From NCBI RefSeq assembly GCF_000025325.1, contig NC_013743.1, forward strand, positions 310,001 through 374,000: a stretch of DNA of 64,000 nucleotides, read 5' to 3'. The first letter of the stretch is position 1, and each line of letters begins with the position of its first letter. Below the pieces are notes generated by a model. It searched no databases, was not told the origin of the DNA, and saw only the letters and a program-made list of their open reading frames with translations. Source of the stretch: Haloterrigena turkmenica DSM 5511. Its GTDB lineage: Archaea > Halobacteriota > Halobacteria > Halobacteriales > Natrialbaceae. Shown here piece by piece: positions 16,990 to 57,467 of this stretch. The position numbers and the translations under genes were made by a program.

Positions 16990-17149
16990 CGGATTGGGAA
17001 TTCTATCAGGTATACGTGTAACTCACTATGAGTGATATGTACGGCTATAGTCCGCTCGTCGTCGGTACGAACGGATACGTCGTCGCCGTTCGTCGGGGCG
17101 CACCGAAACCGACAGTGGTTGTCGCTTCCACGGTTCGCGCTCGAGTTCG

Positions 17150-19261
17150 GTGCAGTCCGAACCGCTGAAATACCGTCCCGCCATACGGCCACTCGTGTCG
17201 AAGCAGGTCCAGGAGGTCGAAACGATCTTTTGTCACGCGACCGGTGACGATTATCTCATCGTCGTCGAGCGCGACGGAAAGCGGCTGTTCCGGGCGAAGC
17301 TCGGACTCTCCGAGACGTCGGCGGGCCCCCGTCCCGCGAAGTTCCGGCTGAAGCAGGGCTCGAGCGAGGAGCCACGCCAGCCCGACGAGTTCGTCGAACT
17401 CGCCCGGCGAGCCGGGCGGATCCGCATCTCCGAGCAGACCGCCCCCGAGAAGCGACGCGAACTGCGGGAGATGCTCGAGGGCTACCAGCTCGAAGACAAG
17501 TCCAAGACCGTCCGGACCTGTCGCTACTGCGCCTCCGCGGGGCGGTACTCACCGATCACGACCGAGACCGCCGTCAAGGACGACAACGACTGGATTTGTC
17601 GTGACTGCGCCCGTCAAGAACTCGAGCGCCAGCTCACCTACTCGGGCAGCGGCGAGGTGACGGCCGCCGCGAAGGACCGCCTCGAGGACCTCATGCTCGA
17701 AGTTCAGGACTTAGAGCGGATCGTCAACCTGCTGCAGGGGCAGTTAGACCCCGACCTAACGAAGTTCGATACCATCTCGGCGACGACCGACGAGGTCGAC
17801 CCCGTCCGAGTGGACTCGCTGAACCTGCATCCGGGACTGCAGAACCTGCTCGAGGACCGGTTCGAGACGCTGTTGCCGGTCCAGAGCCTCGCCGTCGACC
17901 ACGGCCTGTTCGACGGCGACGACCAGATGGTCGTCTCGGCGACGGCGACCGGGAAGACGCTGGTCGGCGAGATGACCGGGATCAACCGCGTGTTAAACGG
18001 CAAGGGGAAGATGCTCTTTCTCGTCCCCCTCGTCGCGCTCGCGAACCAGAAGTACGAGGACTTCCAGGACGAGTACGGCCACCTCGTCGACGTCTCCATC
18101 CGGGTCGGCGCGAGCCGCATTTCGGACAACGGCAACCAGTTCGATCCGAACGCCGACGTCATCGTCGGTACCTACGAGGGGATCGACCACGCCCTCCGGA
18201 CGGGCAAGGATATGGGCGACATCGGGACCGTCGTCATCGACGAGGTCCACACCTTAAAGGAGGAAGAACGTGGCCACCGGCTGGACGGCCTCATTTCCAG
18301 ACTGAAGTACACCTGCGAACAGCGCGCGAAGCGACGGGACGACTACGGCGGCGCCCAGTGGGTCTACCTCTCGGCGACCGTCGGCAACCCCGAACAGCTC
18401 GCGACGGCCCTCGAGTCGAAGCTCATCGAGTTCGAGGAGCGCCCGGTGCCTATCGAGCGCCACGTCACATTCGCCGACGGCCAAGAGAAGGTCCGCATCG
18501 AGAACAAGCTGGTCAGACGGGAGTTCGACACGGAGTCCTCGAAAGGGTATCGGGGCCAGACGATCATCTTCACGAACTCCCGCCGACGGTGTCACGAGAT
18601 CAGCCGAAAGCTGGACTACTCGGCCGCCCCCTACCACGCCGGGCTGGACTACAAGCGCCGGAAGAAGGTCGAACGTCAGTTCGGCGAGCAGGAGCTCTCG
18701 GCGGTCGTCACGACCGCGGCGCTGGCCGCGGGGGTCGACTTCCCGGCCTCGCAGGTGGTCTTCGACTCGCTGGCGATGGGGATCGAGTGGCTCTCCGTCC
18801 AGGAGTTCCACCAGATGCTCGGCCGCGCGGGCCGGCCCGACTACCACGACAAGGGGACGGTGTACGTGCTGGTCGAACCCGACTGCTCCTATCACAACTC
18901 GATGGAGATGACCGAGGACGAGGTCGCGTTCAAACTCCTCAAGGGCGACATGGAGTCGGTGATGACCCACTACGATGAGGCCGCCGCCGTCGAGGAGACG
19001 CTGGCGAACGTCACCGTCGGCGGCAAGGCCGCCAAGGCGCTCAACGACCGCATGCTCGGCGACGTGCCCACCAAACACGCCGTCGGCAAACTCCTCGAGT
19101 ACGACTTCATCGACGGCTTCGAACCCACGCCACTGGGACAGGTGGTCACCCAGCACTTCCTCGATCCCGGCGAGGCGTTCGCCCTGCTGGACGGCATCCG
19201 GAAGGACGCTCATCCCTACGAACTGATCGCCGACCTCGAGTTGCGCGACGACGACCTGTAA
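17150..19261 (+). CDS. Ski2-like DEAD/DEAH helicase with zinc knuckle (DUF5814-type N-terminus)
   Basis: A 703-residue helicase. The N-terminal ~220 residues hold a haloarchaeal-type domain with a four-Cys zinc site (C124, C127, C150, C153) and a predicted coiled coil (170-200). The helicase core has A-T-A-T-G-K-T (264-270), D-E-V-H (364-367), S-A-T (408-410) and Q-M-L-G-R-A-G-R-P (motif VI). These place it near Hel308/Ski2 helicases, which act on branched DNA or RNA. The GTG at 17150 gives the longest plausible N-terminus; GTG at 17195 is an alternative, and no ATG start fits. Substrate unknown. Confidence 0.88.
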   Translation: MQSEPLKYRPAIRPLVSKQVQEVETIFCHATGDDYLIVVERDGKRLFRAKLGLSETSAGPRPAKFRLKQGSSEEPRQPDEFVELARRAGRIRISEQTAPEKRRELREMLEGYQLEDKSKTVRTCRYCASAGRYSPITTETAVKDDNDWICRDCARQELERQLTYSGSGEVTAAAKDRLEDLMLEVQDLERIVNLLQGQLDPDLTKFDTISATTDEVDPVRVDSLNLHPGLQNLLEDRFETLLPVQSLAVDHGLFDGDDQMVVSATATGKTLVGEMTGINRVLNGKGKMLFLVPLVALANQKYEDFQDEYGHLVDVSIRVGASRISDNGNQFDPNADVIVGTYEGIDHALRTGKDMGDIGTVVIDEVHTLKEEERGHRLDGLISRLKYTCEQRAKRRDDYGGAQWVYLSATVGNPEQLATALESKLIEFEERPVPIERHVTFADGQEKVRIENKLVRREFDTESSKGYRGQTIIFTNSRRRCHEISRKLDYSAAPYHAGLDYKRRKKVERQFGEQELSAVVTTAALAAGVDFPASQVVFDSLAMGIEWLSVQEFHQMLGRAGRPDYHDKGTVYVLVEPDCSYHNSMEMTEDEVAFKLLKGDMESVMTHYDEAAAVEETLANVTVGGKAAKALNDRMLGDVPTKHAVGKLLEYDFIDGFEPTPLGQVVTQHFLDPGEAFALLDGIRKDAHPYELIADLELRDDDL

Positions 19262-19398
19262 TCGCCCTCGAGCCGACCTGCATTTCAAGTTCGCACGAGT
19301 CGGCCGGAACGCTTTTGCCGAACGTATCAGCGGCCGGAACGGTAAAGAGTGCGTCGTCCGAGGTACGAGTAGCGCCGGGGACCAGCCCGGAGAGACCA

Positions 19399-20103
19399 AT
19401 GGAGCCAGCTACCCCTTCCGTGATCGATCCGCCGGCAAACGTCTTGCTCGTTCACGAGAAACACTGCGAGCCGGCCGTCTGTCCGGATCTCTGCCACGAC
19501 ACCGGCGCGACGGCAGACCTCAGGGTTTCGTTCGCGGACAACCGGCCGGATCGTCCGGACCCGGACGAAGTGACGGGGAAGGTCGGCCTCCTGACGGTCG
19601 GTGACGTCCTGATCGAGGACGCCGCCGAGTCGGCCCGCGACTTCGACCAGCGGGTCGTCGTCGACGCGGTTCGCGATCCGACCGATCTCTCCGCCATCGG
19701 TGTCGCCGTCAGTCGGTTCTGTAAACACTGGTCCGACGAGCGACTCACGGTCTGTTTCGACTCGCTGGACGCCCTGCTCCGGTCGACGCCGCCGAAAGAC
19801 GTCTTCCAGTTCGTGCACGTGTTGACCAATCGGCTCTCGAGCGTCGACGCGTACGCGCACTTCCACTTCGATCCGACGCGCCACGACGACCGCGTCGTCT
19901 CGACGTTCGGGGAGATCTTCGACGCGGTCGTCGCCGAGGCGGGCAGCGAGGACTCGCTGCCGGAAGCGACCGACGAGGACGTCGCCGAGCTGCTGGCGGC
20001 GTGGACCGACGGGACCGACGACTCCGACAGCGAACTCGAGTTCGCCGTCGAGCCGTCGACCGAAGCGACCGACGAGGATATCGCGCGGATCTTGGGGAAC
20101 TGA
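19399..20103 (+). CDS. DUF7504-like RecA-fold remnant protein (haloarchaeal)
   Basis: A 234-residue protein. It opens with a strand like those of KaiC/RecA-type ATPases (N-V-L-L-V-H) but lacks a Walker A lysine motif. A second core strand is T-V-C-F-D-S-L-D-A-L-L, followed by F-Q-F-V-H-V-L-T-N-R-L and Y-A-H-F-H-F-D-P. This pattern fits a haloarchaeal family of degenerate RecA-like proteins often linked to signalling. The acidic tail has two T-D-E-D-V/I-A repeats (residues ~193 and ~225). The ATG at 19399 is preferred over an upstream in-frame GTG/TTG at 19315. Role unknown. Confidence 0.7.
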   Translation: MEPATPSVIDPPANVLLVHEKHCEPAVCPDLCHDTGATADLRVSFADNRPDRPDPDEVTGKVGLLTVGDVLIEDAAESARDFDQRVVVDAVRDPTDLSAIGVAVSRFCKHWSDERLTVCFDSLDALLRSTPPKDVFQFVHVLTNRLSSVDAYAHFHFDPTRHDDRVVSTFGEIFDAVVAEAGSEDSLPEATDEDVAELLAAWTDGTDDSDSELEFAVEPSTEATDEDIARILGN

Positions 20104-20125
20104 CGGCTCGGTCGTGGTCGGGGCC

Positions 20126-20143
20126 GGCGACTGGGGGGTCGCC
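20126..20143 (+). terminator. GC-rich hairpin between convergent genes
   Basis: GGCGAC and GTCGCC arms (20126-20131, 20138-20143) enclose a G-rich loop and are followed by the G-rich 14-mer GGGGGTGGCGATAG at 20145-20158. The site lies between two convergent genes, where a 3'-end structure is expected. The 14-mer recurs twice at 57.5-58 kb. Confidence 0.4.
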
Positions 20144-20161
20144 AGGGGGTGGCGATAGCGA

Positions 20162-20416
20162 TTACGGAACGAAGGCGACACCGAACAGCGCGAACAGGAT
20201 TACTGCAGCCGCGCCGAGAATCCCACCGAGGCCGACGATCACGAGCACTACAGGGGTGACGGCGATCGAGAGGCCGAAGACGACGTGGCTGAGGAACAAC
20301 ACCACGAGTCCCGCGACCGCGTTGACGATGAAGGGAGCGAGCGCGCGGACGAGCACTGCTGCGACCAGCACGCCCACGAGGACCGCAATCAAGACGAGGA
20401 TTTCGAGACCAGTCAT
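20162..20416 (-). CDS. BofA-like small membrane protein
   Basis: An 84-residue, almost entirely hydrophobic protein with two or three membrane segments. The central A-P-F-I-V-N-A-V-A-G-L-V-V-L motif is the signature of the BofA family (pro-sigma-K processing inhibitor in Bacillus). Haloarchaea have no sigma-K, so its role here must be different and is unknown. The ATG at 20416 begins the family-typical first helix. It is convergent with the DUF7504-like gene. Confidence 0.75.
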   Translation of the reverse strand: MTGLEILVLIAVLVGVLVAAVLVRALAPFIVNAVAGLVVLFLSHVVFGLSIAVTPVVLVIVGLGGILGAAAVILFALFGVAFVP

Positions 20417-20501
20417 GCACGCGGCGGTATCACGTCGACCGCCAAAACCGTTCGGCCGGTAACGAAACCCTTTATGACCTGCACCTTTTAGGAGGGAGTA
20501 C

Positions 20502-20574
20502 GGGATCGTGGGTTAGCTTGGTATACTTCGGGCCTTGGGTGCCCGTGACCCCGGTTCAAATCCGGGCGATCCCA
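20502..20574 (+). tRNA. tRNA-Pro (UGG)
   Basis: A 73-nt cloverleaf. The acceptor stem GGGATCG pairs with CGATCCC, and the discriminator is A. The anticodon stem CGGGC/GCCCG encloses the loop CUUGGGU, giving anticodon UGG (Pro). The T arm is CCCGG-UUCAAAU-CCGGG. CCA is not encoded. An AT-rich element (CCTTTATG, about 20468) upstream may be its TATA box. Confidence 0.95.
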
Positions 20575-20608: not shown

Positions 20609-20675
20609 TATTGAAAGAGCCCGGATTTGTGGTAGACCGAGGTTCTGCGAACGAAGTGAGCAGGTTCTCGGGCGT

Positions 20676-20698
20676 GGTTCAAATCCGGGCGATCCCAT
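20676..20698 (+). repeat. Direct repeat, copy 2 (tRNA-Pro 3'-end fragment, att-like)
   Basis: An exact 23-base copy of the tRNA-Pro 3' end without the rest of the tRNA. An 11-base inverted copy of part of the T arm lies at 20619-20629 (GCCCGGATTTG versus CAAATCCGGGC at 20680-20690). The 100 bp between carry no gene. It looks like the scar of an integrated or excised element. Confidence 0.6.
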
Positions 20699-21146
20699 CC
20701 TCTTAAAACGATTTTCGCTGAAACAGTTAGCGACACAACCGTTTCACTACGTCTAACGGGGCATAGTTGTGGTGTGCCGTACCGTCGAACTCGAGCCACC
20801 GGTCTGCGAGTTCTGTGAGTGTTGCATACTACGTGATGATCAGTTGTGCCCCGCGCTCGAGGACGGGAGGTGTCAGCCATGACGTTCCCCCGGAACCGGT
20901 CGTGCACGATGTGCACGGCCAAAGCGGTCGATCCAACGGCCAAATCTCGCTTCGTGAAGAACAGCTGGCTGCTGCGACGGGAGACCATCAAGGAGATACC
21001 GAACAGTCGGAACTGAGTGCCGAGACGCAAGCGATGTTCTCCGGACCGGTCGGCGACGTATCTTCTCAGAACCCGACTCTGGCATCTACTACTCAACGAC
21101 GTCCGATGAAAACGACAAAAGGTGCTGAATCCCGGTCGTTGGGTGC

Positions 21147-21956
21147 CTAGCTACGCTGACGGGCTAACAGCAACGTTCCCGCAAGCACGGCAGAGAGTGC
21201 ACCGCCGATGCCGAAGCCGGGAACTGATTCGTCCTCCTCGGTTTCGCTGTCGTTGTCAGCGGACTCGGTGTCGTTGTCAGCAGCAGTATCGTCGGTAGCA
21301 CCGTCGTTCTCCGAAGTAGTCGTGTCGTTGTCAGCGGGCTCGGTGTCGTTGTCAGCAGCAGTGTCGTTCTCCGAAGTAGTCGTGTCGTTGCCCGCGACCT
21401 CGGTGTCGTTGTCAACAGCAGTATCGTCGGTAGCAGTGTCGTTCTCCGAAGCAGTCGTGTCGTTGCCTGCGGCCTCGGTGTCGTCGTCAGCAGCCTCGGT
21501 GTCGGTAGCACCAGTCTCGTTGGTAGCACCGTCGTCCGCGGTATCGGTAACAGTGAGTGTCCCTGAACGTTCCTCGTCACCGGCAGTGACTGTCCACTCG
21601 TAGTCACCTTCGGGGAGGGCAATCCCTTCAGCAGTGAAGGTGACAGACCCCGTGTCGTCGGTGCTGGCAGTCACTTCCTCCTGAATCTCTTCTCCATTGA
21701 TCTCGAAGACGACGTCAGTCTCGGCTGGCTCGCCATCGGCGGTAGTCACGGTGACGTCGAACGTGCTCGCTTCAGTCGTCGCGACCGAATCCGGTGCATC
21801 GACTGTCACCTCGAGGTCAGTATCAGCACCGTCGTCGGCGTTTGCAGCGGCCGCGGTTGCTGCGCCCGCAGCGACTGTCGACAGAGCGACCATCGACACG
21901 ATCATCACTGCGGCGAGTACGGTCCATCGCGTTTCTCGAGTTGTTTCGAATGTCAT
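21147..21956 (-). CDS. PGF-CTERM surface glycoprotein with NDT-rich stalk
   Basis: A 269-residue exported protein. A signal peptide covers residues ~1-40 (hydrophobic V-L-A-A-V-M-I-V-S-M-V-A-L-S). One Ig-like domain follows (~45-130: D-L-E-V-T-V-D-A-P, V-V-F-E-I-N-G-E-E-I, Y-E-W-T-V-T-A-G-D). Then comes an Asp/Thr/Asn-rich stalk (~135-235) built from imperfect repeats of D-N-D-T-E-x-A-x-N-D-T-T-x-S-E-N-D with about ten N-glycosylation sequons (NDT, NDS, NET). The C-terminus has P-G-F, a hydrophobic helix and R-Q-R-S, the PGF-CTERM signal for archaeosortase processing and lipid anchoring. The ATG at 21956 gives a normal signal peptide. Confidence 0.88.
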   Translation of the reverse strand: MTFETTRETRWTVLAAVMIVSMVALSTVAAGAATAAAANADDGADTDLEVTVDAPDSVATTEASTFDVTVTTADGEPAETDVVFEINGEEIQEEVTASTDDTGSVTFTAEGIALPEGDYEWTVTAGDEERSGTLTVTDTADDGATNETGATDTEAADDDTEAAGNDTTASENDTATDDTAVDNDTEVAGNDTTTSENDTAADNDTEPADNDTTTSENDGATDDTAADNDTESADNDSETEEDESVPGFGIGGALSAVLAGTLLLARQRS

Positions 21957-48358: not shown

Positions 48359-49141
48359 TCACGACAGTTTGGAGCGAACCGACGAGAGGAGTCCGCCCGA
48401 GTCGACCGGTTCTTCGTCGCCGGCATCCTCAGTCGTCGCCTCGCCGACCGCCGATTCGGATCGGTCGCTCTCCGGGTCGGCGAGCAGTCGGTCGACGGAC
48501 TCCTGTTCGGCCGCGTTCATCCCGGCCGCACCGGGCTCGCCGGCCGGTGATGACGCGGCGCTCTCGTCGGCGGCCGACTCCTCGGCACCCCACTCGAAAC
48601 CGTCGTCGACACCACCGTCATCACCGTCGCTGCTGATACTGCCGACGATCTCCGAAACCGCGTTCTCCGGCAGCTTCGCTCCGTCGTCATCCGGCTCCGT
48701 CTCTCGTTCGGAAAACGCGACTTCGGTCGCGGTCGATGTCGCGTTCTGCCGACCGGTATCGTCGGGATCGCTGCCGGCCAGTGCTTTCGGCCGTCCGGTC
48801 GCCGCTTCGGCGCCGGTGGTTTCCCGTCGAACCGCCTCGAGGGCCGACTCGAGTTCGTCGATCCGATCCTCGAGCCGGTCAACGGTCGCGACGGCCGTCG
48901 CGGCCTGCCGCTCGACGTCGTCGTTGACCGACTCGACGTTGTCGACGAACCCGGTCAGCGACTCCGTCTTCGCCTCGAGGGCAGCGAGTCGCCGTTCCTG
49001 TTCGTCGAGCCGCGTCTCGAGGCGTTCGACGGTCTCGGTGAGCGTCGCCAGATCCCCCAGCTCATCGACCTCGTAGTCGCCGTCGATGACGGCCCGTTCG
49101 ACGGCGGCGAGACGATGGTCGATTCGATCGATATCGGCCAT
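48359..49141 (-). CDS. Coiled-coil protein with acidic disordered tail
   Basis: A 260-residue protein. Residues 1-105 form a long heptad-repeat coiled coil (L-E-T-R-L-D-E-Q-E-R-R-L-A-A-L-E-A-K; V-D-R-L-E-D-R-I-D-E-L). Residues ~110-245 are low-complexity and very acidic. The end, G-L-L-S-S-V-R-S-K-L-S, is a short amphipathic helix, a common partner-docking element. It lies 165 bp downstream of the HerA-like ATPase gene on the same strand, so the two may act together. No enzymatic motif is present. Confidence 0.75.
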   Translation of the reverse strand: MADIDRIDHRLAAVERAVIDGDYEVDELGDLATLTETVERLETRLDEQERRLAALEAKTESLTGFVDNVESVNDDVERQAATAVATVDRLEDRIDELESALEAVRRETTGAEAATGRPKALAGSDPDDTGRQNATSTATEVAFSERETEPDDDGAKLPENAVSEIVGSISSDGDDGGVDDGFEWGAEESAADESAASSPAGEPGAAGMNAAEQESVDRLLADPESDRSESAVGEATTEDAGDEEPVDSGGLLSSVRSKLS

Positions 49142-49306
49142 GGGCTATCTGCCCTCTCGTTCCCATTTAAACCTCAACACGAAGAAAGGGTCCAATAGCG
49201 GGAGTTGGCTCCCTCGAGCGGCGGATGCGCGGTTCAGTCAACGCGACGGGACCGATGTCGTCGACCAGCGGCCGGTCGTCCGTGACGGAACGGCCCGGAA
49301 GTCGAT

Positions 49307-50386
49307 TCAGTCGGTGCCGACCGTCGGAGCGGTGTCAGAGTCAATGTAGTCGCTCGCCCGCGGGCTGTCGCCGCCGTGGGGCGTGTCTCGCCACCGAACC
49401 TGCGCGGCGTGGACGGTCTCCGTGGCGTCGTCGATGACCACCACTTCGCCGGGCTCCGTCGGCATTCGGTCGTCGAGCGACCCGTTCATGTACGTCGGCT
49501 GGGCGCTCTCGAGCGCCTCGAGATCGGCCTCGGAGGTGAGCCGGTGGGAGACGAGGACGTCCGACTGGGAGATGCCGACCGGCGGGACGGCGCCGGGCCG
49601 CTGGGTCGCGGTCACGAGGCTGACTCCCGGCGCGCGGCCGCGCGTAAGAATCGTCCGGAGGGCCGGCTCGGCCACGCCTTCGAAGAACGTGTGGGCCTCG
49701 TCGAGCAACAGCCAGGGGAGCCGATCGATCGTCCCGCGGACTCGAGCCCGGTAGAGCGCCTCGCCGACGCCGCGACAGATGGCGTTCATGGCTCGAGCCT
49801 CGAGCCCGGAGACGTCGACGATCGTCACCTCCGGCCCGCCGAGGTCGGCCGCCGAGAGGCCGTCGGGATCGAAGACGTCCCACGACGCCGCGAGGTTCAG
49901 GTGGTTGATCGCGGCCCGCTTGTCCGCGTCGGGCGCGTCGGTCGCCTCGACGTGGTCGCGCATGGCGGCGATGGTCGCCGATTCGGTCGCCGCCTGCCAG
50001 ACGAGGCTCCCGGCACCGCTTTCCGGCGAGAGATCCAGCAGCGCACACCAGGATTTCGGGTCGAGCGAGGTCGCTTCGACGGCCGGAGAGGAGACCACAT
50101 CGGTCGGTACCGGATTGCCCTCGGCGTCCTCGGCGAGCGTGTCGAAGACGCCCATCGGATCGACGATCACGGGCGCGACGCCCCGCGATCGCGCGAGTTC
50201 CTCCGCGATGACGCCCATCGTGAACGACTTTCCGTACCCGCGCTTGCCGACGACGAGCATTGCGTGCGGGCCGTCGAGGTCGAGAAAGAGGTCGGCCCCT
50301 TCGCTCCCATCGAGCGCCCGGTATCGACCGAGTCGTCCTGCGGGTCCCTCCGCTAGCTCGTCGCCGCGCCCAATTACGAAGCTCAT
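49307..50386 (-). CDS. HerA/VirB4-like ATPase
   Basis: A 359-residue P-loop ATPase of the HerA/FtsK superfamily (DUF87-like). Walker A is G-K-R-G-Y-G-K-S (47-54), Walker B is W-L-L-L-D-E-A-H, with a later T-Q-R-P motif typical of pumping ATPases. No NurA nuclease gene is nearby, unlike classical herA loci. Members move DNA or protein through a ring. The ATG at 50386 begins S-F-V-I-G-R-G, typical for the family, and a minus-strand TATA-like TATATAG lies at about 50403-50411. The coiled-coil gene follows; two membrane RCK-C genes diverge from it. Confidence 0.85.
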   Translation of the reverse strand: MSFVIGRGDELAEGPAGRLGRYRALDGSEGADLFLDLDGPHAMLVVGKRGYGKSFTMGVIAEELARSRGVAPVIVDPMGVFDTLAEDAEGNPVPTDVVSSPAVEATSLDPKSWCALLDLSPESGAGSLVWQAATESATIAAMRDHVEATDAPDADKRAAINHLNLAASWDVFDPDGLSAADLGGPEVTIVDVSGLEARAMNAICRGVGEALYRARVRGTIDRLPWLLLDEAHTFFEGVAEPALRTILTRGRAPGVSLVTATQRPGAVPPVGISQSDVLVSHRLTSEADLEALESAQPTYMNGSLDDRMPTEPGEVVVIDDATETVHAAQVRWRDTPHGGDSPRASDYIDSDTAPTVGTD

Positions 50387-50645
50387 AGAGATAATATCCC
50401 CACTATATAAATTATAATTTTCTGCCATAGTTTAAGTATAAAGGGTAGAGGAATAGCGGCATGCTCCGCAAGGAAATGCGAACTGGCGGCTCCGATCGCG
50501 GATCGAGCAGTCGCTTCCGTCCGGGCGGCAGGTCAATCGCGGGACGGCCGAGTCGGCGATCCGCCGGGAAGCGACAGGTGATGTTCGGCGCCCCCTCGAG
50601 AAAGACGGGGCATCGAACCGGTACGACGGCACGAGTTGAGACGCT
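50387..50645. promoter_or_regulatory. Divergent promoter region, AT-rich
   Basis: The 50387-50450 segment is the most AT-rich in this part of the window (TATATAAATTATAATTTT and GTATAAAG). It lies between the HerA-like gene (minus) and the membrane gene pair (plus). The minus-strand TATA at 50403-50411 fits a leaderless HerA message. A second element (AAGTATAAAGG, 50434-50444) could serve the plus strand, with a leader of about 175 nt. Confidence 0.5.
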
Positions 50646-52004
50646 ATGGATACGGTAGCGTACGAATCGGTGATCGGAGTCTCGTACGGGCTGTTGATCG
50701 CCGTCGTGACGGCGTCCCTCGTCGCGGCGGTCGCGATCGGCCTCGGCTACGTCCAGCGGCGACGACTGCCGCGGGCCGCGTCGGGCGTGATCGCGATCAC
50801 GCTGACCGTTGGGATCGGCTACGCGATCGGCGTCTTCGCCGTCGATCCTCTGTCGGCGCAGGCGGTCCGGATCGCGACGGCGCTGTTCGTCACCGGGGTG
50901 ATCGCCGCCTACGCGGGCAGTCTTGGCTGGCGACTCGCGACCGAACTCCCGCGGAAGACGTCGCTTCCTGTCGAGCGCGGTCGGACGCTCTCCGGCGATG
51001 CGATCGACGCGGTCGACGTGATGGGACAGGTGACGATCCGCGCCAGCGGCGAGGTCCGCGCCTTCGAGGGGTATCCGCCGCTCGACCCCGACCTCCGGGC
51101 GGCCCTCGAGGACGGAGCGTGGCGACTGCCGGCGGATCTGCCGCTCGCGGAACTCGAGACCCGCCTCGAAGACCGATTGCAGACGACCTACGACCTCGAG
51201 GCAGCCTCGGTCGCCGTCGACGGTCGGGGGTGGGCGACGATCACCGCGGCACCGCCGTCCAACGGCATCGCGAGGCAGGTGCCGAAGGGATGGCGTGCGG
51301 TCTCGGTCCCGGCGTTGCTTCCGACGGGACTGGCACCGGGCGACGACGTTCTGGCGATGACCGACTTGACGACCGTCGCCGGGACCGTACTCAGCACGAC
51401 TGTCCGCGGAGGTAAGGGCCTGCGCGCGGACGGCGGTCACACACGAGGTACTCCGGCCGCGGATTCGTCCACTGCGATCGACGACCGCCCCACGGGTACG
51501 GAGACCGGCGAAGCGGCGCGGCCGTCGGCCACAGCGGTCCGCGGCGGCGAGGGCCAGGTGACCGTCGCCGTCCCGACGACCGACGCCGAGACGCTGCTCG
51601 AGGCCGACCGGGCGCGGATCGTCGTCGAACCCGGTGAAACCACCCACGAATTCGACGCGGTCTCGCTGCTCGAACGCGACGGGACGGCGATCCGCAAGGT
51701 GACGCTGACCGAGCCGATACTCGAGGCGCTCGACAACGACGCCCTCGGTCTGGAGGTGTTCGCGGTCCGCCGCGACGATATCGGTGAAACCTGCGACGCC
51801 GGCGAGACGGATCGGACTGACGACGAGACCGGCCACGCCGACGCGACGGCGGGCGAGTGGCAGTTCGATCCCGATCCGTCGGCGATCGCGGTCGGCGTGG
51901 AGGCGTTCCTCCTCGGAACCGACGGGTCGGCCGTCGACGCCGATCCGGATCCAGACGCGGCCCCACGCGACGGCGACCGCCGATCAATCGAGGTGGCCTA
52001 CTGA
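50646..52004 (+). CDS. Membrane protein with RCK-C (TrkA-C)-like domains, first of a pair
   Basis: A 452-residue protein. Three hydrophobic helices occupy ~12-35, ~45-66 and ~75-98. A cytoplasmic part follows with a predicted ligand-binding domain (~115-235) and a TrkA-C-like segment (~300-385: G-Q-V-T-V-A-V-P-T-T-D, I-V-V-E-P-G-E). The tail is Asp-rich. TrkA-C domains bind nucleotides or ions and regulate channels and transporters. Its stop is one base from the ATG of the next gene, which has the same layout, so the pair probably forms a complex. Substrate unknown. Confidence 0.7.
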   Translation: MDTVAYESVIGVSYGLLIAVVTASLVAAVAIGLGYVQRRRLPRAASGVIAITLTVGIGYAIGVFAVDPLSAQAVRIATALFVTGVIAAYAGSLGWRLATELPRKTSLPVERGRTLSGDAIDAVDVMGQVTIRASGEVRAFEGYPPLDPDLRAALEDGAWRLPADLPLAELETRLEDRLQTTYDLEAASVAVDGRGWATITAAPPSNGIARQVPKGWRAVSVPALLPTGLAPGDDVLAMTDLTTVAGTVLSTTVRGGKGLRADGGHTRGTPAADSSTAIDDRPTGTETGEAARPSATAVRGGEGQVTVAVPTTDAETLLEADRARIVVEPGETTHEFDAVSLLERDGTAIRKVTLTEPILEALDNDALGLEVFAVRRDDIGETCDAGETDRTDDETGHADATAGEWQFDPDPSAIAVGVEAFLLGTDGSAVDADPDPDAAPRDGDRRSIEVAY

Positions 52005-52005
52005 G

Positions 52006-53262
52006 ATGACGATGCTCGCGCTCGAGATGATCGGTGCAATCGACCTCCTCGGAACGGCGCTCCAGAGCGGCGACGCGTTCGGCGGATCGACGACGGTCGA
52101 GTGGACGCGGACGGCCCTGCTGGGTATCCTCGGTTACGGGCTGCTGGCGGGCGTCGGCGCGCTCACGGTCGCGTTCGGTTATCGTGGCGCGACCGTTCGC
52201 AAATCACCGCACGGAGCGGCCGTCCTCGCCGGACTCGCACTCCCGTCTGGCTGGCTCGTCCTCGAGGCGCTCCGCCGCGGTGAGGTCGTCGTCGATTCGC
52301 CGCTGGTCCACTACACGTCCGGCAGTTATCTCCTCGGGCTGGTGGCCGCTGGCGCCCTCGCTGCGACCGGCGGCTATCGGCTCGGCGACCACCTCGCGTG
52401 TGGCGTCTACGACGTGACGGAACTCGAGACCGACGGATCGGCCGCGGATCTCGTCCGATCGGCCGGACTCGCCGTCGCGGTCGCGCTCCCCGAGTCGATC
52501 GACGACGCCGAGGGGTACCCCGCCGTCGACGACGCCGTCAAACGAAAACTGGCGGGACGACAGTTGCGCTTCCCGAACGACCTCACGCTGCCGGAACTGC
52601 GATCCCGGCTCGAGGCGCGCCTCGAGTCCGACTTCGATATCGGCTACGTCCGCGCCGAACTCTCCGAGGACGGCGCCGTTGAGGCCGTTTCCGTCGGTGA
52701 CCGGACGCACGGGATCAGCCCCTCGCTGGGACCGGATCGGGTCGCCGTCGCCGTCGCCGGCGATCCGCCCGCGCGGGCGAGCACCGGCGACCCGGTCGAG
52801 GTCTGGACGGACGGCGACACCCGGCAGTTCGTCGCGACGGGGACGCTGCGGGCCAGTACGGGACCGATCACGACGCTGCTCGTCGACGCGGACGACGCCG
52901 AGGCGTTCGATCCCGGCCAACGGTATCGCCTCACGACGCGGCCGGAGACGCCGAGCGCCGGCCACGCGCTGGTCGCCGCGATCCGAACCGGTGACGAGAC
53001 GGTGACGGCGACCACGGCCGAGGACGGCGGCCCGCTCGAGAGCGAGTTCGCCGGCTGGGTGCCGGGCCGCGTGCTGGCGATCGAACGCGACGACGAGATC
53101 GTCTCGCTGCCGGCCGACAAGGACCCGCTCGAGGCCGGCGACACGCTCTACGTTTTCGGGACGCCCGACGAACTCGAGGCGTCGCCCTCGGACGCGGACG
53201 ACTCGACGTTGGAGGCGGACGCGGACGAACCGCCGGAAGCGACGCCGCAGACGGTGGACTGA
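52006..53262 (+). CDS. Membrane protein with C-terminal RCK-C (TrkA-C)-like domain, second of a pair
   Basis: A 418-residue paralogue of the preceding protein: three N-terminal helices (~32-55, ~63-83, ~103-122), a middle domain (~150-330) with P-E-S-I-D-D-A-E-G-Y-P and L-P-E-L-R-S-R-L-E-A-R-L-E resembling the partner, and a clear RCK-C fold near the end (~335-400: V-L-A-I-E-R-D-D-E-I-V, D-P-L-E-A-G-D-T-L-Y-V-F-G). An acidic tail follows. It starts one base after the first gene stops. The annotation potassium transport regulator is possible, but no Trk/Ktr pore gene is present here. Confidence 0.75.
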   Translation: MTMLALEMIGAIDLLGTALQSGDAFGGSTTVEWTRTALLGILGYGLLAGVGALTVAFGYRGATVRKSPHGAAVLAGLALPSGWLVLEALRRGEVVVDSPLVHYTSGSYLLGLVAAGALAATGGYRLGDHLACGVYDVTELETDGSAADLVRSAGLAVAVALPESIDDAEGYPAVDDAVKRKLAGRQLRFPNDLTLPELRSRLEARLESDFDIGYVRAELSEDGAVEAVSVGDRTHGISPSLGPDRVAVAVAGDPPARASTGDPVEVWTDGDTRQFVATGTLRASTGPITTLLVDADDAEAFDPGQRYRLTTRPETPSAGHALVAAIRTGDETVTATTAEDGGPLESEFAGWVPGRVLAIERDDEIVSLPADKDPLEAGDTLYVFGTPDELEASPSDADDSTLEADADEPPEATPQTVD

Positions 53263-53390: not shown

Positions 53391-54347
53391 ATGTCCGAAC
53401 TACGCGGTGCTGCCGAGACGGCCGTCCGGCAGTGTCTCGCCCTCGAGAGCCAGGAATCGTGTGCGATCGTCACCGACGACGACCGCGTTCCGATCGGGGA
53501 GGCCCTCTACGAGGTCGCAAGCGAGATCACCGACGACGCGGTCATCGTCCGCTACCCGCCCGGTGAGACTCACGGGAGCGAACCGCCCGAACCCGTCGCC
53601 GCGGCGATGGCCGGGGCGGACGTCGTCCTCGCGCCGACGACGAAGAGTCTGAGCCACACGCGGGCCCGAACCGAAGCCAACGAGGCCGGCGCCCGCGTCG
53701 CGACGCTCCCGGGGATCACCGAGGACGTTTTCACGACGGGGCTAGACGCCGACTACGAGTCGATCGCCGCCCACTGCGAGGACGTCAGAGCGCAGGTCGC
53801 CGACGCCGACGAGGTCCGCGTGACGACTCCCGCAGGCACCGACATCACGTTCGGGATCGGCGACCGCGAGTGGCTCTCGGATACCGGGATCGTCCACGAG
53901 GCCGGCCAGATGTCGAACCTGCCCGCCGGCGAGGTGTTCGTCAGCCCCGAGACCGCTGACGGGACGTTCGTCGTCGACGGGACGATGCGACCCCACGGCC
54001 TGCTCGAGGAGGGGCAGCGACTCACCTTCGAGGTCGAGGACGGGCTGGTCACGCAGATCTCTGACGACGAGATACGGGAAACGGTCGAGGGTGCGGCCGA
54101 AGACGTGGGCGACGCCGCGTACAACCTCGCGGAACTGGGGATCGGAACGAACGTCGCGGTCACCGACCTCGTCGGCTCCGTCCTGTTGGACGAGAAGGCC
54201 GGTGGCACCGTCCACATCGCGATCGGTGACAACGCGGGCATCGGCGGCGAGACGGAGGCGCCGATCCACCTCGACGGGATCCTGCGGGAACCGACGGTGT
54301 ACGCCGACGGCGAGTCGATCGACCTTCCGACCGCGACTGACGCCTGA
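53391..54347 (+). CDS. M29-type aminopeptidase-like protein
   Basis: A 318-residue protein similar to thermophilic aminopeptidase T (family M29), which is a dicobalt/dizinc exopeptidase. The visible core includes A-G-A-D-V-V-L-A-P-T, the residues E-A-G-Q-M-S-N-L-P-A-G-E-V-F-V-S-P (N-L-P-x-G-E is a family hallmark), and late G-x-N-A-G-I-G-G-E-T-E-A-P-I-H. It is shorter than classical M29 enzymes (~400), as are several archaeal members. The ATG at 53391 follows a TATA-like TACAATATA at 53376-53384, too close for a leaderless start, so the promoter may be further up. Activity unproven. Confidence 0.75.
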   Translation: MSELRGAAETAVRQCLALESQESCAIVTDDDRVPIGEALYEVASEITDDAVIVRYPPGETHGSEPPEPVAAAMAGADVVLAPTTKSLSHTRARTEANEAGARVATLPGITEDVFTTGLDADYESIAAHCEDVRAQVADADEVRVTTPAGTDITFGIGDREWLSDTGIVHEAGQMSNLPAGEVFVSPETADGTFVVDGTMRPHGLLEEGQRLTFEVEDGLVTQISDDEIRETVEGAAEDVGDAAYNLAELGIGTNVAVTDLVGSVLLDEKAGGTVHIAIGDNAGIGGETEAPIHLDGILREPTVYADGESIDLPTATDA

Positions 54348-54505
54348 TCGACGGCGTGACTCGAGCGGTCCGGATCTGGGCCTGGGTCGTTCCGGCCTCG
54401 AATTGCACGCACGGACCGACTTTCTGTCTCGTCTGAACGATAACCTATCTCGACGATCTGTGAGAACCTAGTGGATTCAAGGGGTGACAGGAAGAGTTCG
54501 GACCG

Positions 54506-55087
54506 ATGCGCGACACTCGAGAGTACGATATTCAGGGGATCGAACTCGTCGACGACCGATACACGGTCGAACAGGGACTCATTCGGAACAAGTACAGGGC
54601 GCTCGACGCCGGCGGGAACACCGTCCTCAAGGGGAAACAGAAGATGTTCAAGCTGAAAGAGGAGTTCCCGTTCACCGACGGGGACGGTAACGAGGTGTTC
54701 ACGGTAAAGGCCGGAGGGATCATGGACGTCGCGGGCAACTACGTCCTCTCGGACGCCCAGACCGGCGAGGACCTCGTCGCGCTGGACAACGACTACTCGC
54801 TGCTGCGAGACACGTGGACGATCCGCGACGCGACGACCGAGGAGAAACTGGCCGAGATCAACTCTCGCGGCGCGATGGTAACGCTGGCCCGGAACGTCGT
54901 TCCCTTCGGCGAGTGGATCCCGCACAAGTACGAGATCACCGACGCGGAGGGCGCTCACGTCGGCTCGATCAGCGGCCGAATCTCGTTGCGCGATCGCTAC
55001 GATATCACCATCGACGACGCCAGCACCGTCCCGAAAGAGCCCATCGTCGCCGCGGCGATGGTCATCGACGCGATTCAGGGGAACTAG
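54506..55087 (+). CDS. LURP-one/tubby C-like domain protein
   Basis: A 193-residue beta-barrel protein of the LURP-one-related/tubby C-like family. The repeating strand pattern is typical: Y-D-I-Q-G-I-E-L, K-Y-R-A-L-D-A-G-G-N-T-V-L-K-G, V-F-T-V-K-A-G, Y-V-L-S-D-A-Q-T-G, and the final helix A-A-A-M-V-I-D-A-I. Eukaryotic homologues bind phosphoinositides; the archaeal role is unknown. Several upstream in-frame starts exist, but the ATG at 54506 fits the domain start. Confidence 0.85.
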   Translation: MRDTREYDIQGIELVDDRYTVEQGLIRNKYRALDAGGNTVLKGKQKMFKLKEEFPFTDGDGNEVFTVKAGGIMDVAGNYVLSDAQTGEDLVALDNDYSLLRDTWTIRDATTEEKLAEINSRGAMVTLARNVVPFGEWIPHKYEITDAEGAHVGSISGRISLRDRYDITIDDASTVPKEPIVAAAMVIDAIQGN

Positions 55088-55173
55088 CCCTCTTCGGAGC
55101 ACCCAGAGCGCCAGAACCGAACTCGCGGCCGGTTCGATCGACCCCGTTCTCGACTGGACGACGGCTTCAATCG

Positions 55174-55182
55174 CTTTTTAGG
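55174..55182 (+). promoter_or_regulatory. TATA box of the HVO_0476-like gene
   Basis: CTTTTTAGG lies about 26 nt before the ATG at 55204. It decides that start, because the reading frame is open upstream to 54814. Confidence 0.5.
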
Positions 55183-55203
55183 TGCGTAGCGTCTAGAACG
55201 GTT

Positions 55204-55857
55204 ATGAGCGAAATCCCGGATCGGGTTCCGACGCCCTGTCCTTCGTGCTCGCCGGACCTCGAGACGGTCCACGAGGTACTCACGGAAGGCGGCGGCACCC
55301 TCACGGTTCGTTGTAGCGAGTGCAGTCACGTCCACAAGATCCAGCCCGAACGCGAGCGAGAGGTCACCCTCGACGTGGTCGTCTCCCAGGGCGGCGAGTC
55401 CTTCACCGCGAACGTAACGACGCCCGAAGACGAGACCGTCGAGGTCGGCGACGAGTTCATCCTCGAGACCGAGGAAGTGCTCTCGACGGTTCGGGTCACG
55501 AGCGTCGAACTCGACGGCCAGAAGCGCCGCGAGGAAGCATCCGTCGAGGATATCGAGACCGTCTGGACCCGCGAGGTTGACAACGTCGCAGTCAACGTCA
55601 CGGTCCACCCCCAGGACGGCTCGCGCGACGACAGCCGCAGTGTCACGGTCCACGTCCCCGGCGATTACGAGTTCGAGGTCGGCGAGGTCGAGCAGTTCGG
55701 CGACGACGAGTTCGAGATCGACGCGTTCGTCGTCCGCAACGACGCTGCAGGCTACGATCGGGACCGCTACGAGATGGAGGGCGATTCAGTCCCCGCAAAG
55801 GACGCAAAACGCATCTACGCCTACGACCAGCAGACCAGCGCCTGGTCTGCCTGGTAG
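55204..55857 (+). CDS. HVO_0476-like zinc finger protein
   Basis: A 217-residue protein with an N-terminal zinc knuckle pair (P-C-P-S-C and V-R-C-S-E-C, residues ~12-40), followed by beta-strand-rich modules (T-L-D-V-V-V-S-Q-G-G-E-S-F-T-A-N-V; E-V-G-D-E-F-I-L-E-T-E). It ends with the family sequence A-K-R-I-Y-A-Y-D-Q. This is a conserved haloarchaeal family of unknown function; an RNA- or protein-binding role is plausible from the ribbon. It is followed by two PIMT-type genes on the same strand. Confidence 0.82.
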   Translation: MSEIPDRVPTPCPSCSPDLETVHEVLTEGGGTLTVRCSECSHVHKIQPEREREVTLDVVVSQGGESFTANVTTPEDETVEVGDEFILETEEVLSTVRVTSVELDGQKRREEASVEDIETVWTREVDNVAVNVTVHPQDGSRDDSRSVTVHVPGDYEFEVGEVEQFGDDEFEIDAFVVRNDAAGYDRDRYEMEGDSVPAKDAKRIYAYDQQTSAWSAW

Positions 55858-55976
55858 GGCGCTGATCGGACGCCGTTCGCGCCCGGTATCGGCCTCGTGC
55901 GACAGTCGAGGATCGCTCGAACGGTGCCGGCACTCGCCACCCACGGTCTATTGCTTGCGAGACGGTATATCGGACC

Positions 55977-56642
55977 ATGTTTCGTAACTTCGGTTCCGAT
56001 TCCGAGTCCGATCCCGACGACTACGAGGCCGCACGCGAGCGCATGGTTCGGACCATCGCGTCTCGAGTCGACGACGATCGCGTTCTCGAGGCCATGGAGT
56101 CTGTCCCCCGCCACGCTTTCGTCCCGCCGGACCGACGGGATCGGGCCTACGAGGACCGGCCCCTCCCGATCGGGGACGGACAGACGATCAGCGCGCCACA
56201 CATGGTTGCCGTGATGGCCGATCTGCTCGGCTTAGATTCCGGCGACGAGGTCCTCGAGATCGGCACCGGTTGTGGCTACCACGCCGCGGTCACGGCCGAG
56301 CTCGTCGGCGACGAGGCGGTCGCGACCGTCGAGTACAGCGCCGAACTCGCCGACCGGGCCCGCGAGCAACTCGCGGAACTCGGGTACGACGGGGTCGACG
56401 TTCGGACCGGCGACGGTCGCGAGGGCTGGCCCGAGCACGCGCCCTACGACGCCGCGTACTTCACGTGCGCGACTGCGGAGCTCCCCGATCCCGTCGCCGA
56501 TCAGGTGCGCCCCGGCGGCACGCTCCTCGCGCCGATCGGGTCCGGATTCCAGACGCTCGTCGAGGCGACGAAACGGGGGGACGGACGGCTCGAGCGCACC
56601 GAGCACGGCGGGGTCCGGTTCGTGGAAATACGCGGCCAGTAA
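55977..56642 (+). CDS. pcm: Protein-L-isoaspartate O-methyltransferase
   Basis: A 221-residue repair enzyme that methylates isoaspartate in aged proteins using S-adenosylmethionine. The active-site region D-G-Q-T-I-S-A-P-H-M-V-A is intact, motif I is L-E-I-G-T-G-C-G-Y, and post-I is A-T-V-E-Y. Its ATG at 55977 is followed by an acidic Ser/Asp-rich extension (~6-16). A second, divergent PIMT-like gene follows 75 bp downstream. Confidence 0.92.
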   Translation: MFRNFGSDSESDPDDYEAARERMVRTIASRVDDDRVLEAMESVPRHAFVPPDRRDRAYEDRPLPIGDGQTISAPHMVAVMADLLGLDSGDEVLEIGTGCGYHAAVTAELVGDEAVATVEYSAELADRAREQLAELGYDGVDVRTGDGREGWPEHAPYDAAYFTCATAELPDPVADQVRPGGTLLAPIGSGFQTLVEATKRGDGRLERTEHGGVRFVEIRGQ

Positions 56643-56717
56643 CGGCGGGTTGACCGCTCGATACCCGCCGGGTGGCGCAAGCGCGCCATTGATAACGACC
56701 CGAGCGATACCTTCAGT

Positions 56718-57467
56718 ATGGACCCTGCGGTACTGCGCGAGGATATGGTCGACGGCCTCGAGTCCGCGGCCAAGGACGTCCTCCACGACGAGGTCGTCGC
56801 CGTCGCGATGCGGGACGTTCCCCGCCACGAATTCCTCGAGGACGATCGATCGGCCTACGCTGACCGAGAACACGAGGTGTTGGGAACGCGCGTCCTCGCT
56901 CCGAGCACGGCCGCCCGATTACTGCAAGCGCTGGCCCTCGAGGACGACCACGAGGTGCTGATCGTCGGCGCCGGGGTCGGCTACACGGCCGGGGTCGTGG
57001 CCGAAGTCGTCGGCGAGACCAACGTCCACGCGGTCGATATCTCCCGACCGCTGGTCGTCGAAGCCCGCCAGAACCTCGCTCGAGCAGGCTACGAGGGCGT
57101 ACTGGTCGACCGCCGCGACGGCGCCGACGGCCTCCCGGAATACGCGCCGTTCGATCGCGTGCTCCTCGAAGCCGCCGCCGTCGAGCCCCCACGAGCCCTG
57201 CTCGAGCAACTGACCGACGACGGCCGACTGGTGTTTCCGCGGGGAACCCAGCGACAGCGACTCGAGGCCGTCTCGGCCGACGGCAGGCGCTCGCAGTTCG
57301 ATCCTGTCTCGTTTGCGCCGCTGTTGGTCGAGGGCGAACAGTCGGGCGCCGTCGAGCGGAACCGGACGGCTCGCGAAGACCGGGAGTATGCCGTGCGCCG
57401 CGCGGAATCCCGACGCGGTTGGGAACAGGACTGGATCGAGTGGGAGGAGTCGATCGGCTCGCAGTGA
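56718..57467 (+). CDS. Divergent PIMT-like methyltransferase
   Basis: A 249-residue paralogue of pcm. The methyltransferase core is kept with motif I L-I-V-G-A-G-V-G-Y, V-H-A-V-D-I (post-I), and E-Y-A-P-F-D-R-V-L-L-E-A-A-A. The catalytic T-I-S-x-P-H stretch of true PIMTs is replaced by V-L-A-P-S-T-A-A-R, so its substrate or activity has probably changed. The N-terminal ~45 residues (V-P-R-H-E-F-L) still align with PIMTs. An extra C-terminal tail rich in Arg/Trp (R-R-G-W-E-Q-D-W-I-E-W) is present. Tandem arrangement with pcm implies duplication. Confidence 0.85.
   Translation: MDPAVLREDMVDGLESAAKDVLHDEVVAVAMRDVPRHEFLEDDRSAYADREHEVLGTRVLAPSTAARLLQALALEDDHEVLIVGAGVGYTAGVVAEVVGETNVHAVDISRPLVVEARQNLARAGYEGVLVDRRDGADGLPEYAPFDRVLLEAAAVEPPRALLEQLTDDGRLVFPRGTQRQRLEAVSADGRRSQFDPVSFAPLLVEGEQSGAVERNRTAREDREYAVRRAESRRGWEQDWIEWEESIGSQ

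Follow-up and report, generated by a model that had tools for sequence, protein, structure and literature searches.

A HerA/VirB4-Type ATPase and a Coiled-Coil Protein as Candidate Accessory Components of a Type IV Pilus System in Haloarchaea

Introduction

Several machines that combine pili with ring-forming or related ATPases have been described, and they are the closest points of comparison for a four-gene locus of Haloterrigena turkmenica DSM 5511 that includes a HerA/VirB4-type ATPase. Among archaeal type IV pili (T4P), Makarova, Koonin and Albers (2016) defined the halobacterial subclade 4F, whose main-text passages mention a unique intracellular coiled-coil protein, arCOG07564, a secretion ATPase often with a Cys-rich N-terminus and, in dispersed loci, an FtsZ-like neighbour; the same passages report that archaea are without a PilT ATPase for retraction (PMC4858521). 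In type IV secretion, pili are built with the energy of two ATPases, a VirB4 hexamer and VirB11 underneath it, as outlined in passages of PMC12624023, and in Sulfolobales the Ced and Ups systems act jointly in the import of chromosomal DNA, according to a passage of PMC11868833.

The window, that is, the whole stretch of 64,000 nucleotides analysed here, corresponds to C1:310001-374000 of a haloarchaeal genome that comprises 5.44 Mb and 7 contigs. The four genes that an initial annotation had placed at 48359-53262 are all open and intact frames, two on the minus and two on the plus strand. The HerA-type ATPase and the DUF7310 coiled-coil protein are read here as cytoplasmic accessory parts of one haloarchaeal T4P system, with a probability of roughly 60%, because of their co-occurrence with pilus genes, the gene order in relatives, the complementary split of the genes in this genus, the HerA tree, the fold and the features shared with subclade 4F. 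The ATPase is thereby a concrete candidate for the missing pilus motor or for a pilus-linked DNA pump. The features concerned are the following:

48359..49141, minus strand: DUF7310 coiled-coil protein of 260 amino acids (PF23991, E=1.9e-29)
49307..50386 (likely; open reading frame to 50428), minus strand: HerA/VirB4-type ATPase (DUF87/HerA match, motifs, fold)
50403..50417, minus strand: AT-rich TATA-like element TTTATATAG (minus-strand letters), upstream of the likely ATPase start, from direct reading of the sequence
50646..52004, plus strand: M1, with N-terminal membrane helices (three by hydropathy), a mixed alpha/beta domain, an RcpC-like beta domain and a divergent RCK-C-like end
52006..53262, plus strand: M2, with N-terminal membrane helices, middle domains as in M1 and a TrkA-C (RCK-C) domain (PF02080, E=2.4e-6; model and fold matches)

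Association of the ATPase with Pilus Genes

Gene presence was compared over 242 genomes of the haloarchaeal class, uncorrected for shared ancestry, from hand-transcribed sets with thresholds of our own choice (E<1e-50 for HerA, about 1e-7 for DUF7310, about 1e-6 for DUF7382), any listed match being counted for DUF7311 and M2; the threshold for DUF7310 gave 184 genomes versus 187 by the curated cut-off. Expressed as both/HerA only/other only/neither, the counts are 174/2/9/57 with DUF7311 (phi 0.88, agreement in 231/242 genomes), 174/2/10/56 with DUF7310 and 173/3/8/58 with DUF7382, in contrast to 163/13/42/24 (phi 0.36) with M2, the internal contrast. The ATPase is rarely found without the pilus system, as 2 of the 176 strong matches lack DUF7311. 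The laboratory species Haloferax volcanii is among the genomes that match DUF7310, DUF7311 and DUF7382. Within the window's family the HerA/DUF7311 counts are 33/1/1/26, and in the five genera of this family that include both states (g1, g2, g3, g5, g11) the two genes agree genome by genome. In one of the two HerA-only genomes, G045, the ATPase aligns at residues 169-332 only and has no Walker A half; the genome of this decayed gene (L260:7824-8285) has only a weak match to DUF7310 and none to DUF7311, and DUF7382 is retained nearby.

Gene order was counted in 20 loci, most of them chosen for their likeness to the window. HerA, DUF7310 and DUF7311 stand in line in 17/20, and M1/M2 fall in the mapped stretch of 16/20. 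In the related loci HerA and DUF7310 commonly precede DUF7311, a T2SSE/PilB-type ATPase gene and a gene of the PilC/TadC type, after which come DUF7283 and DUF7285, so that the common order in relatives is M2-M1-DUF7382 divergent from HerA-DUF7310-DUF7311-PilB-PilC. DUF7311 is absent next to the ATPase gene in three of the 20, namely the window, its congener G196 and L110. A wider set of 80 ATPase loci was also gathered, from which 33 non-haloarchaeal ones (25-36% identical; PilB profile match in L222 only) were excluded from the named-locus counts; genes were called by a procedure of our own based on amino-acid frequencies, which missed some. DUF7382, a short membrane protein, is encoded divergently upstream of the ATPase in 33/45 named haloarchaeal loci, and DUF7310 lies directly downstream in 5/43 by script count and also in L162 and L196, which failed the overlap rule.

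The genes missing from the window are found elsewhere in the same genome. On contig C5, DUF7382 (20632-21159) and DUF7311 (20093-20557) are separated by 74 bases, and PilB (18114-20060) and PilC (16292-18106) come next; neither HerA nor DUF7310 interrupts these four genes, and in G196 the same four are arranged on contig C4 as on C5, again without HerA or DUF7310. The chromosome carries DUF7310, HerA, M1 and M2, as well as the minor-pilin-like DUF7283 and DUF7285 at C1:2.77 Mb; the genome has one match apiece to DUF7310, DUF7311, DUF7283 and DUF7285. On the simplest interpretation these genes make up one pilus system, the operon of which came apart in this genus and is now divided between the chromosome and C5.

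Two observations concern the genes around these clusters. About 4 kb from the pilus genes of C5, a 595-amino-acid DUF87 protein with coiled-coil-like matches is encoded (L147:10095-11882). In L111 (genome G144), M1/M2 of the pilus clade are retained without a strong HerA match or DUF7311, and they stand next to genes of the kind flanking the C5 pilus genes; this pair is possibly the remnant of a lost pilus locus.

Comparison with Subclade 4F and the Coiled-Coil Protein

The system shares with subclade 4F a coiled-coil protein, the Cys-rich N-terminus of the secretion ATPase, an FtsZ-like neighbour, the PilC/TadC-type partner and minor-pilin-like genes, and by these described features it is probably that subclade; in contrast, the passages of PMC4858521 consulted mention no HerA-type ATPase, DUF7382 or M1/M2 pair. 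At least four Cys occur in the first 170 residues of 16/22 PilB gene calls, including the C5 copy, the other six calls being shorter (425-604 amino acids). A CetZ tubulin-like gene is divergent from DUF7310 in L119, L122, L124 and L261, where HerA lies elsewhere (Pfam scan of the L119 protein only), in line with the FtsZ-like gene reported for 4F. None of the top-ranked literature matches listed ties a HerA-type ATPase to haloarchaeal pili, by which its absence from print is not shown.

The DUF7310 protein is probably arCOG07564 itself, which it fits by description. The long coiled coil, acidic linker and short end that had been read from the sequence are borne out, in the order of an N-terminal coiled coil, a linker with 28% D+E and 5% K+R, and a short C-terminal hydrophobic tail. 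The tail pattern, which was written after the tails had been looked at, recurs in 46/55 relatives versus 4.0 expected from shuffled tails. The protein may be an adaptor with a docking peptide.

The HerA-Type ATPase

The assignment of the ATPase to the HerA type in the initial annotation is confirmed by several lines of evidence. The protein matches PF01935 (DUF87/HerA) with E=1.6e-7 and 32.1 bits versus a cut-off of 23.2, its matches in the PDB by sequence are HerA-class chains (best E=1.6e-5), and its motifs are Walker A GKRGYGKS, Walker B WLLLDEAH, TRGR and TQRP, the core residues of which are invariant in 16/16 aligned proteins; the DUF87 core, motifs and fold place it in the HerA/FtsK-type superfamily. 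The predicted model (predicted local distance difference test, pLDDT, 78; predicted template modelling score, pTM, 0.80) has low confidence at the N-terminus and finds as its top fold match the Sulfolobus HerA, with Z 29.2 over 320 residues at 4.0 Å, followed by an antiphage HerA (8xav, Z 27.1), the C-domain of DndH (26.5), VirB4 (24.9) and TrwB (19.4).

The start of the ATPase is probably at 50386 (MSFVIG), the position at which 5 of 11 gene-called relatives start, rather than at 50428, to which the open frame extends; Walker A would therefore begin at residue 47. In the region of the HAS barrel there would thus be 46 residues before Walker A; the alignment to the Sulfolobus protein begins at HerA residue 97, and this is the end of the model with low confidence. 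The AT-rich promoter region that was thought to be shared by both gene pairs is AT-rich on the ATPase side of the intergenic region, but not on the other side.

No NurA gene stands beside the ATPase, as had been noticed, since the genome's sole match lies outside the window at C1:644153-645094, about 0.28 Mb off; a NurA-type repair helicase was rejected on this location. In the HerA tree the window ATPase is nested in the operon-type clade (Shimodaira-Hasegawa-like approximate likelihood ratio test, SH-aLRT, 96), apart from the type of the M29/PCMT loci.

The comparison with VirB4 and VirB11 rests on the presence of a HerA/VirB4-type and a VirB11-type ATPase in one pilus machine and on the VirB4 fold match (309 residues, 3.3 Å), although the window ATPase is much smaller and is without the VirB4 N-terminal domain. 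The fold is also close to that of the defence ATPases, antiphage HerA and DndH, whereas neither SIR2, DUF4297 nor a Dnd partner was noticed at the mapped loci, where no defence-library search was made.

The Membrane Pair M1/M2 and a Potassium Channel

M1 and M2 are paralogues (hhalign 99.9%, E=4.8e-33) separated by a single base, M1 ending at 52004 and M2 starting at 52006, as first described. Of the TrkA-C-like domain expected in both, that of M2 stands (PF02080, 27.8 bits versus a cut-off of 27), whereas the window M1 has no match; at E up to 0.1 the family is found in 17/17 M2 and 5/18 M1 proteins. The three helices proposed for each hold for M1 by hydropathy, but their number is not firm, as the M2 model has three confident N-terminal helices and one of low confidence at the N-terminus. 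This model has pLDDT 77 and pTM 0.33, so that the placement of the domains is unsure. Its residues 320-396 match RCK-C domains such as that of KhtT with cyclic di-AMP (c-di-AMP; Z 9.2, 77 residues, 3.1 Å), and residues 236-320 match RcpC (9gzr_A) with a middling Z of 8.4 over 83 residues at 2.4 Å.

The likeness to the RCK-C subunits of K+ channels and transporters (KhtT, MthK, KtrA) concerns the domain at residues 320-396, which in M2, unlike in those subunits, sits on a membrane protein with an RcpC-like domain whose gene is away from that of the channel. Judging from RCK-C, M1/M2 probably have their soluble part in the cytoplasm, whereas the RcpC of Tad pili is described as periplasmic, and the RcpC-like fold also occurs in the channel-linked family. 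With an E limit of 0.1, PF16976 (RcpC/CpaB) is matched by 2/18 M1 proteins (best 0.0018), and the window M1 reaches 14.3 bits versus a cut-off of 28.8; the identification of M1/M2 as true RcpC proteins was rejected on this score, and therefore a resemblance of fold alone is claimed, itself with a middling Z.

The lack of a channel gene, noticed initially, is true of this stretch, but a second, paralogous M1/M2 pair in the same genome (L092:7441-9938) is read divergently from the gene of a K+ channel that has Ion_trans_2 and TrkA_N domains. Among 20 further loci with copies away from the ATPase, the K+ channel is present in 19 and a ThiS-like gene in 19; all 13 channel proteins scanned have TrkA_N, and TrkA_C is not among the families that they match (E up to 0.01). 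This widespread haloarchaeal unit, in which the channel is divergent from the RCK-C pair and the ThiS-like gene, occupies L092:6006-9938 in the window's own genome (C1, about 606-610 kb) and recurs in L238-L257. A channel without detected TrkA_C and a separate membrane RCK-C pair are possibly a split RCK channel; the membrane pair of the window points to a channel whose RCK-C part may come from separate membrane proteins.

In the M2 tree (63 rows, 59 different, with genes entered twice as L071/L111, L083/L106 and L090/L129), a branch of support 100 divides 26 rows, 24 of them channel-linked, from 37 rows, 29 of them pilus-linked; most of the eight other rows on the pilus side come from loci whose flanking sequence is short, and G144 and G181 are the genuine exceptions. 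From the paralogy, the channel-linked copies and this split, M1/M2 look like the duplicate of a channel accessory, relocated to the pilus locus in some members of the class. Inside the pilus cluster, M1/M2 stand between two MinD-like (MinD/ParA-like) genes in L102 and L104-L108 and adjoin them in L099 and L101, neighbours that are reminiscent of TadZ in Tad pilus systems.

Proposed Function and Alternatives

In type IV secretion VirB11 and VirB4 both energise pilus formation, and the presence of both ATPase types here therefore favours a second motor. The HerA-type protein would assemble into a hexameric ring and work beside the PilB/VirB11-type ATPase in the manner of VirB4 with VirB11, and at the base of the pilus it would act on a substrate inserted in the membrane, for which the pilin-like DUF7382 is one candidate; VirB4 itself was reportedly linked to pilin dislocation by Kerr and Christie in 2010. 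The DUF7310 protein would tether or position the ATPase via its conserved tail. M1 and M2 may be membrane sensors, recruited from the K+ channel module, that bind an ion or small ligand by their RCK-C domains and tune the pilus machine. In a fuller picture, which is less likely than not, one archaeal pilus would be driven by two ring motors, the VirB11-type PilB and a compact HerA/VirB4-type ATPase on a coiled-coil adaptor, and these would supply retraction, pilin extraction or DNA pumping, the step for which archaea have no PilT, under ion or c-di-AMP control by the RCK-C pair of a split K+ channel; c-di-AMP occurs in Haloferax.

Some findings weigh against the assignment of the ATPase to the pilus. 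It stands apart from PilB/PilC outside the operon-type clade and also in the members L110, L161 and L163; DUF7311 occurs in nine genomes where no strong HerA match exists, so that the ATPase is accessory and dispensable to the system; the co-occurrence counts are uncorrected for ancestry and depend on thresholds that we chose. In addition, the solved HerA-class relatives among the fold matches mostly act on DNA or with defence or nuclease partners, and we know of no HerA-type protein that moves pilins in a T4P.

The main rival on the substrate, which overlaps with the pilus-accessory assignment and differs from it in this respect, is a DNA pump that cooperates with the pilus when DNA is taken up or exchanged, in the way that CedB, likewise HerA/VirB4-like, cooperates with Ups pili. 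The fold of the ATPase, nearest to DNA translocases and other HerA-class ATPases, its co-occurrence with a T4P system and the joint import of chromosomal DNA by Ced and Ups in the passage cited (PMC11868833) make a HerA-class motor for DNA beside a T4P conceivable. However, CedB and CedD carry N-terminal domains as well as membrane helices, the window ATPase was not noticed to have a membrane anchor, no VirB6- or CedA-like channel was noticed among the neighbours at these loci, where no model search for one was made, and haloarchaeal mating is described as proceeding via cell bridges; a DNA substrate is possible but less likely than not.

It is improbable that the ATPase is an ordinary HerA of chromosomal DNA repair, tied to the pilus as a by-product of shared lineage-specific gene loss. 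Its HerA fold and motifs would suit this role, but the gene order with DUF7310, DUF7311, PilB and PilC, the agreement within the five mixed genera, the decayed gene of G045, the short region before Walker A from the likely start and the distant NurA speak against it.

Least likely by our estimate is a single membrane-gated complex of all four genes, in which M1/M2 would be an ion-sensing gate and the ATPase would drive transport through it: the membrane pair lies at most 10 kb from the ATPase in 23/33 family genomes and the pilus-linked M2 copies are a clade apart from the channel-linked ones, but this link is present in 7 and absent in 32 of 39 named haloarchaeal loci (those with at least 9 kb upstream), HerA/M2 co-occurrence is weak, M1/M2 switch side and orientation within the cluster, and no pore is evident. 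The 33 family genomes are those with a strong ATPase match, the decayed G045 being excluded and linkage being read from coordinates; among the remaining 10, the pair lies elsewhere in six, M2 is unmatched in two and no place is listed in two. Linkage of the membrane pair to the ATPase pair in related genomes, the point on which the initial annotation was to be tested, thus gives a mixed outcome. The motor and coiled-coil partner do stand beside ion-sensor-like membrane proteins, as the initial annotation held, but its single complex is unsupported because motor and coiled coil follow the T4P system in presence pattern and gene order. A self-contained four-gene pump is weakened by the co-occurrence counts and the unlinked loci; a membrane-gated motor is retained as a subsidiary hypothesis within the pilus reading.

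Flanking Genes and Closest Relative

Beyond M2 a group of genes provides context outside the system:

53391..57467, plus strand: M29 peptidase, LURP-one-like, HVO_0476-like and two PCMT-like genes

Among named relatives the closest match found is Haloterrigena salina, whose ATPase is 95% identical, and PCMT, M29 or HVO_0476-like genes lie at most 10 kb from the ATPase in 28/39 named haloarchaeal loci.

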